Of a DNA stretch of 64,000 nucleotides, positions 31,808 to 33,559 are shown piece by piece. Below the pieces are notes generated by a model. It saw nothing but the letters and a program-made list of their open reading frames with translations. It was not told the origin of the DNA and made no database searches. Both the position numbers and the translations under genes were made by a program. Origin of the DNA: Methanolacinia petrolearia DSM 11571 (lineage in GTDB: Archaea > Halobacteriota > Methanomicrobia > Methanomicrobiales > Methanomicrobiaceae); NCBI RefSeq assembly GCF_000147875.1, contig NC_014507.1:558001-622000 (forward strand). Reading direction: 5' to 3'. Positions within the stretch are counted from its first letter, which is position 1, and every line of letters starts with the position of its first letter.

Positions 31808-32278
31808 TTACAACCCCGCCTCTTTAATCATCTCATCAATTTTTCCAGAGTCTTCGGTCTCCTTCTCGCTGAAACCGTATGCACCAAGAACATTCATCCC
31901 GGCGTCTTCGAGTCTTTTTCTGAGGATGTTGAGGGTTTCACCTTCCGAACCACGGTATGTGGCAAATGCAACGGCCTTTTTGCCTTTCGCTTCTTTGATT
32001 ATGCCCAGTCCTGCATTGACCACAGGTGTCGGGTGACCTCCCCATACAGGTGTTCCTATGATGACGATATCATAGTTTGAGAGATCGATATTTGATATGC
32101 CAATCTCGTCTCCCTGCTGCATCAGTGCTCTCTTTATTCCGGATGTGTACATTCCGATCCTGGAGTACTTTTTCTCCGGATTCAGTTCGATTATGTCAGA
32201 ATCTGTTTTTTCATGGATATATTCGGCGACTCTTCTTGTATTCCCTGTCTCCGAATGATATACGATCAGGCTTTTCAT
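31808..32278 (-). CDS. Flavodoxin-family protein
   Basis: A 156-residue flavodoxin-like fold. The FMN phosphate loop is YHSETGNTRRVAE (residues 7-19). GTPVWGGHPTPVV (about 75-87) and ATYRGSEGETLNIL supply the isoalloxazine loops. Some methanogens use small flavodoxins for electron transfer; others in this family are quinone- or metal-reducing oxidoreductases, so the partner is not certain. A perfect TTGCATA-N4-TATGCAA palindrome lies 35 bp upstream of its start, suggesting specific regulation. Confidence 0.85.
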   Translation of the reverse strand: MKSLIVYHSETGNTRRVAEYIHEKTDSDIIELNPEKKYSRIGMYTSGIKRALMQQGDEIGISNIDLSNYDIVIIGTPVWGGHPTPVVNAGLGIIKEAKGKKAVAFATYRGSEGETLNILRKRLEDAGMNVLGAYGFSEKETEDSGKIDEMIKEAGL

Positions 32279-32330: not shown

Positions 32331-32500
32331 AAGGTGAAATATGAGAATCATTTATTCTGCGTATCCGTGATTTCAGGGAAAAAAAAATAATTTGCCTTTT
32401 GATTGCTCCAGCTGAAAATTCTTTTGAAACAAGGCTGAATTTAAAATATATTCGATATTATTTGATTATTTAAAAAGTTTCTAAAACAGGTTAACTTCAT

Positions 32501-32510
32501 AAATATTATA
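32501..32510 (+). promoter_or_regulatory. TATA-like element of mptA
   Basis: The sequence AAATATTATA predicts transcription starting near 32528-32531, which is where the structured leader RNA begins. Confidence 0.45.
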
Positions 32511-32526
32511 TCGTCTTCAAAAAATA

Positions 32527-32596
32527 GTTACAGGGATTAGATACGATCACGCAACCTGTATGAATCTGTTGCGGGCGTATCGGAAATACCTGTAAT
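32527..32596 (+). ncRNA. Structured 5' leader RNA of mptA, candidate riboswitch or attenuator
   Basis: Three nested perfect helices can be drawn by hand. P1 is TTACAGG (32528-32534) with CCTGTAA (32589-32595), 7 bp. P2 is GATACG (32540-32545) with CGTATC (32576-32581). P3 is CGCAAC (32550-32555) with GTTGCG (32568-32573), closing a 12 nt loop. The internal loops are GATTA/GGAAATA and ATCA/GG. CCTGTA at 32555-32560 can also pair with TACAGG of P1, giving a mutually exclusive fold. The element ends 9 nt before the GAAGAGGT ribosome site. Function as a switch is inference. Confidence 0.55.
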
Positions 32597-32620
32597 GTTA
32601 TGATCGAAGAGGTATATTCG

Positions 32621-33559
32621 ATGGATCTCCCGGATACACAATCCACTTTACCAGAGGTTCGCATCAACCTGACAAGGGTTGGTGTGAAAAATGTCAAAAA
32701 GCTTATTGAAGTAGCAAGGCCTGGCAAGCGACCGGTAATTTTCATCTCTAATTTTGATGTCTTTGTAGATCTCCCGAGCAGTCTTAAGGGTGCGAACATG
32801 TCTCGCAACTTCGAGGTTATCGATGAGGTTCTCCAGAAGGCAGTCGAAGGAGAGGTAAAAGGCATCGAGGATGTCTGCAACTCGGTCGCACGAAAACTTC
32901 TCGACCACCATGAATATGCTGACAGAACAGAAGTCCTGATGACCAGCACCTTCATGGTAAGACGCGAGACTCCGGTGTCAAAGACAGAATGCGATGAGGT
33001 TGTCAAGGTAGTTGCAAGTGCGGTTGCGAAGCGCAACAACGGAAAACCGATTATCAGGAAGAGTATAGGGGCTGAGGTTACCGGAATCACGGCATGCCCT
33101 TGTGCACAGAACATCATGAAAGAGATCGCCCAGAATAAACTTGCCGAACTCGGAATCGAACAGGAAAAGATCGTCGAATTCCTTGATGCAGTGCCTATGG
33201 CGACCCACAACCAGAGGGGTCAGGGCTTCCTCAGCATTGAAATTGACGATGACCAGTGGGTCGATCTTGAAAAGATAATAAGCGTCCTGAAGAACTCGAT
33301 GAGTGCAAAGATATACGAACTCCTGAAAAGAGGCGATGAAAGCCATGTTGTCTTTTCAGCACACAAGAATGCAAGGTTTGTGGAAGACTGCGTCAGGGAG
33401 ATGGCGAAGAGCGTTCTGACAGAGTTTGATTTCCTTCCCGGAGATTCGCTTATAACGATTCGCCAGACAAACGAGGAGAGCATTCATCAGCACGATGCAT
33501 ATGCCGAGAGAAAGGCGACCATAGCTGAACTGAGAGCAGAGATCAACGAGTCGTTCTGA
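32621..33559 (+). CDS. mptA: GTP cyclohydrolase MptA (tetrahydromethanopterin biosynthesis)
   Basis: Fe2+-dependent GTP cyclohydrolase of the FolE2/COG1469 family. It makes 7,8-dihydroneopterin 2',3'-cyclic phosphate, an early pterin step toward tetrahydromethanopterin. The 312-residue protein starts MDLPDTQSTLPEVRINLTRV, has FVDLPSSLKGANMSRNFEV near residue 50, the metal-site Cys/His block TGITACPCAQNIMKE, and AVPMATHNQRGQGFLSIE. ATG 32600 is in frame, but GAAGAGGT at 32605-32612 favours 32621. Preceded by a strongly structured leader. Confidence 0.94.
   Translation: MDLPDTQSTLPEVRINLTRVGVKNVKKLIEVARPGKRPVIFISNFDVFVDLPSSLKGANMSRNFEVIDEVLQKAVEGEVKGIEDVCNSVARKLLDHHEYADRTEVLMTSTFMVRRETPVSKTECDEVVKVVASAVAKRNNGKPIIRKSIGAEVTGITACPCAQNIMKEIAQNKLAELGIEQEKIVEFLDAVPMATHNQRGQGFLSIEIDDDQWVDLEKIISVLKNSMSAKIYELLKRGDESHVVFSAHKNARFVEDCVREMAKSVLTEFDFLPGDSLITIRQTNEESIHQHDAYAERKATIAELRAEINESF

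Follow-up and report, generated by a model that had tools for sequence, protein, structure and literature searches.

Between the promoter and the ribosome site of one gene, mptA, whose coding sequence belongs to PF02649, we found a leader hairpin of three nested helices that appears to be a structured mRNA leader particular to its lineage and not a novel riboswitch sensing a ligand. The window in which it lies is the whole 64,000-nt stretch of Methanolacinia petrolearia DNA that was analysed, from a genome that is a single contig of 2,843,290 bases and holds one copy of the leader element. We give about even chances to the reading that this is an mptA-specific, cis-acting hairpin whose middle helix (P2) is selected and whose outer and apical parts evolve fast, and which would act through its fold on mRNA stability or ribosome access. 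A sequence-only reading of the same DNA, which had taken the leader for a candidate riboswitch or attenuator with two mutually exclusive folds, is partly supported.

Promoter, nested helices and ribosome site of mptA

The helices P1, P2 and P3 lie exactly where the sequence-only reading had put them, and all three are contained in the RNA MFE fold of the leader. In the following list of features, as in the rest of the text, G000 is the window's own genome, and G001 and G002 are two other species of the same genus.

32500..32511, + strand: mptA promoter, TATA-like box TAAATATTATAT (from sequence); a similar sequence stands in a comparable position 5' of most mptA genes and their leaders in the family
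32526..32545, + strand: conserved first segment AGTTACAGGGATTAGATACG with the presumed start of the transcript, containing the 5' strands of P1 and P2
32528..32534, + strand: P1 5' strand, TTACAGG (sequence, RNA MFE fold)
32540..32545, + strand: P2 5' strand, GATACG (MFE fold; 6/6 pairs kept in 3/3 species)
32550..32555, + strand: P3 5' strand, CGCAAC (MFE fold; 1/6 pairs kept in G002)
32555..32560, + strand: CCTGTA, which could pair with the P1 5' strand instead, either as a transient or at a cost of about 8 kcal/mol relative to the MFE
32568..32573, + strand: P3 3' strand, GTTGCG (sequence, MFE fold)
32576..32581, + strand: P2 3' strand, CGTATC (in G002, a compensatory G-C to A-U change and an A-U to G-U change)
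32579..32591, + strand: possible anti-SD strand ATCGGAAATACCT, with 12/13 pairs to 32610-32622, excluding P1 and part of P2
32589..32595, + strand: P1 3' strand, CCTGTAA (altered in G002, with 4/7 pairs remaining in register)
32603..32622, + strand: small ribosome-site hairpin ATCGAA-GAGGTATA-TTCGAT, identical in all three species
32609..32613, + strand: Shine-Dalgarno (SD), GAGGT (from sequence)
32621..33559, + strand: mptA coding sequence, a GTP cyclohydrolase of the FolE2/MptA family (Pfam PF02649, E 1.1e-78)

The TATA-like box, previously placed at 32501-32510, is indeed present and spans 32500-32511, at a distance of 24-25 nt from P1, with the SD following P1. Because this box is kept across the family, the transcript start is placed near P1, and from the box-to-start spacing we infer a position near 32526-32530; that the structure lies within the mptA transcript, as had been proposed, is very likely. 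The spacer from the end of P1 to GAAGAGGT measures 10 nt and not 9. The start codon is most likely the ATG at 32621, where homologues begin, and the ribosome site at 32603-32622 can form a small hairpin that carries the SD in its loop and takes the first two bases of the start codon into its stem. The divergent neighbour of mptA in the window (31808-32278, - strand) is a flavodoxin; in L008, the corresponding neighbour resembles a ketol-acid reductoisomerase (ilvC), judged by sequence reading alone.

Triplets of perfect, nested helices measuring no less than 7, 6 and 6 bp, a criterion chosen after the hairpin had been seen, occur in one of 20,000 dinucleotide shuffles and in one of 201 genome leaders, namely that of mptA, the other 200 being controls drawn from 464 kb of the same genome; elsewhere in the 64,000-nt window such nested helices are present on neither strand. 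The folding energy of the mptA leader (z -2.2 to -2.8) ranks 14th among the 201 leaders (top 7%), and since it ranks no higher than this, the fold is unusual for its perfection more than for its stability.

Constraint within the genus and searches for a wider class

The 94-nt leader of G001 differs at three positions, all outside the three helices, as compared to 44/212 positions in the upstream intergenic region (p 2e-5 versus the leader) and 17/131 4-fold sites (p 0.016). This rate of change is ordinary among the leaders of neighbouring genes (0 to 18%), so that the low rate in G001 mainly points to constraint on promoter and leader. The more informative picture comes from G002, in which the third positions of mptA differ by 47% and the 4-fold sites by 59%. 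Nearly unchanged there are the promoter, the first ~20 transcribed bases (16/20 bases of the AGTTACAGGGATTAGATACG segment at 32526-32545 are the same), the 3' strand of P2, the ribosome site and the first ten codons, the last two forming a stretch (32603-32651) that is identical in G002. A lack of conservation in related mptA leaders, which the sequence-only reading had named as refuting it, is largely what P1 and P3 show, and is not what P2 shows. P2 retains 6/6 pairs in G002, where one pair has gone from G-C to A-U by a double change and another from A-U to G-U; the double change is the whole of the covariation seen within the genus (three species) and is matched by 165/500 shuffles. P1 keeps 4/7 pairs in register in G002, its 3' strand having changed; in the fold, UGUAUU provides a shifted 6-bp partner. 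P3 keeps 1/6 pairs, and a different hairpin stands between the strands of P2. P1 and P3 are complete in G000 and G001 only.

Searches for a wider RNA class recovered the element in this genus only. Rfam gave no match to the window's leader at gathering score; what scored lower were chance matches to families other than riboswitches. A covariance model built on the leader returned one strong match per genome in the three congeneric genomes, each at mptA, and elsewhere only weak matches (E 0.4 and above), with no regulon. Across 232 genomes of the order, the 19-nt motif at the 5' end of the leader is exact, among the matches listed, only in the three congeneric mptA leaders, and outside the genus it is about as frequent as its reversed control. 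An mptA leader hairpin of such fast sequence turnover would be missed by sequence-based RNA searches.

mptA leaders in other lineages of the order

The mptA leaders of other genera cannot be aligned to that of the window beyond the TATA box and short stretches, and many of them fold well. Taken family-wide as the mean of genus means, the folding z is -0.82 for mptA, +0.15 for frhA and -0.28 for purL, a modest difference given standard errors of 0.3-0.4. In Methanocorpusculum-type genomes, a hairpin held by covariation lies just 5' of the ribosome site and has the form CGUU-n-[variable stem]-n-AACG. Across 14 distinct leaders, pairing holds in 95% of cells versus 88% when shuffled, and covariation, scored on a model-fitted alignment, reaches 0.290 as against 0.159 in shuffles (0/500) and at most 0.079 in slid controls; an earlier count on seven sequences not fitted to the model went in the same direction, and a permutation test of the arms gave 15/20,000. 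The model of this hairpin matches mptA leaders only, save for one match at E 0.86, and does not match the leader of the window. In one species, the Methanogenium-type hairpin has undergone compensatory change, its pairs going from G-C to A-U, A-U to G-U and A.A to U-A. Leaders of this type (L010, L011, L102, L103, L105 and others) carry a run of six T directly after the hairpin and before the ribosome site, and given this run, a termination-type attenuator is conceivable in that lineage. The Methanoculleus- and Methanoregula-type leaders differ in look, as judged by eye only, and the G009 leader has no significant structure (z +0.59), one genus being near 0. Leader hairpins at mptA are thus frequent in the order without being universal or alike in sequence.

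Two further observations were made upstream of mptA in these genomes. Around 25 Methanoregula/Methanolinea-type genomes (L029, L030, L035, L040, L041, L044, L045, L047, L049, L051, L052, L055, L056, L058-L060, L063, L064, L066, L067, L069, L072-L074 and L079) display a conserved GG(A/G)(T/G/A)GCGATGNNNTATT motif before mptA, the ATT of which is in frame with a conserved LPD(V/I)Q N-terminus. In five of these genomes (L035, L040, L052, L056 and L069), there is an in-frame stop two codons before this ATT, and no ATG, GTG or TTG lies between that stop and the LPD(V/I)Q N-terminus, which suggests that mptA of this type may start at AUU or by way of a +1 shift from a nearby ATG. The region upstream of mptA in L097 (G003) is filled by multiple inverted repeats of the form CGTGCATGAC...GTCACGCAC, which may represent a small mobile or repetitive element.

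Competing explanations and relation to known systems

A riboswitch or attenuator, in which a pterin, purine or metal would bind the P1-P3 domain, shift the pairing and expose or hide the ribosome site, has in its favour that mptA encodes an early enzyme of the pathway, that the closed domain begins at the 5' end of the transcript and that an early hairpin is predicted to form transiently; we regard it as quite unlikely. The alternative pairing named by the sequence-only reading is real insofar as CCTGTA at 32555-32560 can pair with the 5' strand of P1, and it is the best fold only for an RNA whose end falls between about 32560 and 32570, a transient limited to lengths short of about 32574. At full length, it costs ~8 kcal/mol relative to the main fold, and the segment is missing in G002. 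The MFE fold retains P1-P3 and leaves the SD unpaired with a probability of 0.86-0.99 in G000 and G001 and 0.67-0.81 in G002; alternatives overall lie 6.6-12.1 kcal/mol above it in G000 and G001 and are weakly conserved. A pairing that had not been named before, between 32579-32591 (the 3' strand of P1 with part of P2) and 32610-32622, would mask the SD along with the beginning of the start codon through its 12/13 pairs, and is the better switch candidate. Relative to the main fold it is worse by 6.6 kcal/mol in the window and by 12.1 kcal/mol in G001; two of the three leader changes of G001 fall within it and one breaks a pair. Neither switch is regarded as supported. As for attenuation, the window has no T run after P1 (TGTTATGATCGAAG) and no U-tract after the hairpin. 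The claim of a riboswitch or attenuator likewise fares poorly on conservation: there is no conserved unpaired, aptamer-like core, P3 and one strand of P1 having been replaced in G002, and the element has no Rfam match and is found at no other gene and in no other genus.

The hairpin might instead be a mostly neutral inverted repeat from a recent ancestor of two species, with only the promoter and the ribosome site conserved, a reading we doubt but take seriously: full P1 and P3 are confined to G000 and G001 and the leader changes at a rate typical of its neighbours, but both strands of P2 survive a 4-fold divergence of 59%, with a compensatory change, and hairpins of other sequence precede mptA in other lineages, one of them with clear covariation. 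That the repeats serve as a DNA operator, with a repressor binding ACAGGT/ACCTGT near 32486, 32530, 32554 and 32588, appears very improbable. The four ACAGG(T/G) copies fall within ~110 bp and are all kept in G001, but G002 lacks three of the four and retains only the start-proximal TACAGGGA, and the inverted arms are 46 nt apart. Least probable is a leader peptide, MNLLRAYRKYL (ATG at 32560, stop at 32593-32595), whose translation would be coupled to mptA expression; its frame is open in G000 and G001 with the ATG inside the P3 loop, but no Shine-Dalgarno precedes this ATG, all three G001 changes alter the peptide and the corresponding ATG of G002 reads on into mptA.

In bacteria, preQ1, THF and other riboswitches precede GTP cyclohydrolase genes. 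Like the mptA leader, they have a GTP cyclohydrolase of pterin-type synthesis as the downstream gene; unlike them, the mptA leader has no match in Rfam, no conserved core, a single gene and a fast turnover of sequence. Bacterial folE2, of the same enzyme family (FolE2/MptA), is under the control of Zur (PMC2770081), which is a DNA-binding repressor, whereas the repeats of the mptA leader are not kept in G002. A further likeness is to long, structured 5' UTRs known from methanogens, those of mtaA and mtaC among them, which also range from tens to 150 nt, have predicted structure and lie between a TATA-driven start and the ribosome site (PMC5378194). They have been discussed for cold response and transcript stability (PMC5378194), whereas the fold of the mptA leader is a predicted one and leaves its SD free. 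Since a 5' UTR of 20-150 nt is nothing unusual in a methanogen, and long ones have been connected with transcript stability in the cases of mtaA and mtaC (PMC5378194), the mptA leader would be a further case of a kind already known.

Returning to the cis-acting hairpin, we posit that the mptA mRNA begins near the foot of P1 and that its first 70 nt fold into one long hairpin (P1, P2 and P3), leaving the SD unpaired ~10-15 nt downstream. P2 would be the part under selection across the genus, with P1 and P3 as quickly turning-over extensions. The hairpin would act in cis on the mptA mRNA alone and by way of its fold, sealing the 5' end and keeping the leader clear of the ribosome site, and could in this manner set the lifetime of the mRNA and a steady access of ribosomes. 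A broader proposal, which we consider rather unlikely, is that the mptA leaders of Methanomicrobiales constitute a gene-specific regulatory RNA whose fold and not sequence is kept across families, reporting on how methanopterin synthesis stands, for instance through binding to MptA itself or to some other shape-reading protein; we know of no feedback of that form in methanopterin synthesis. To our knowledge, little is known of how methanogens set the level of this synthesis, and a leader hairpin confined to mptA would be a place to look for its post-transcriptional control.
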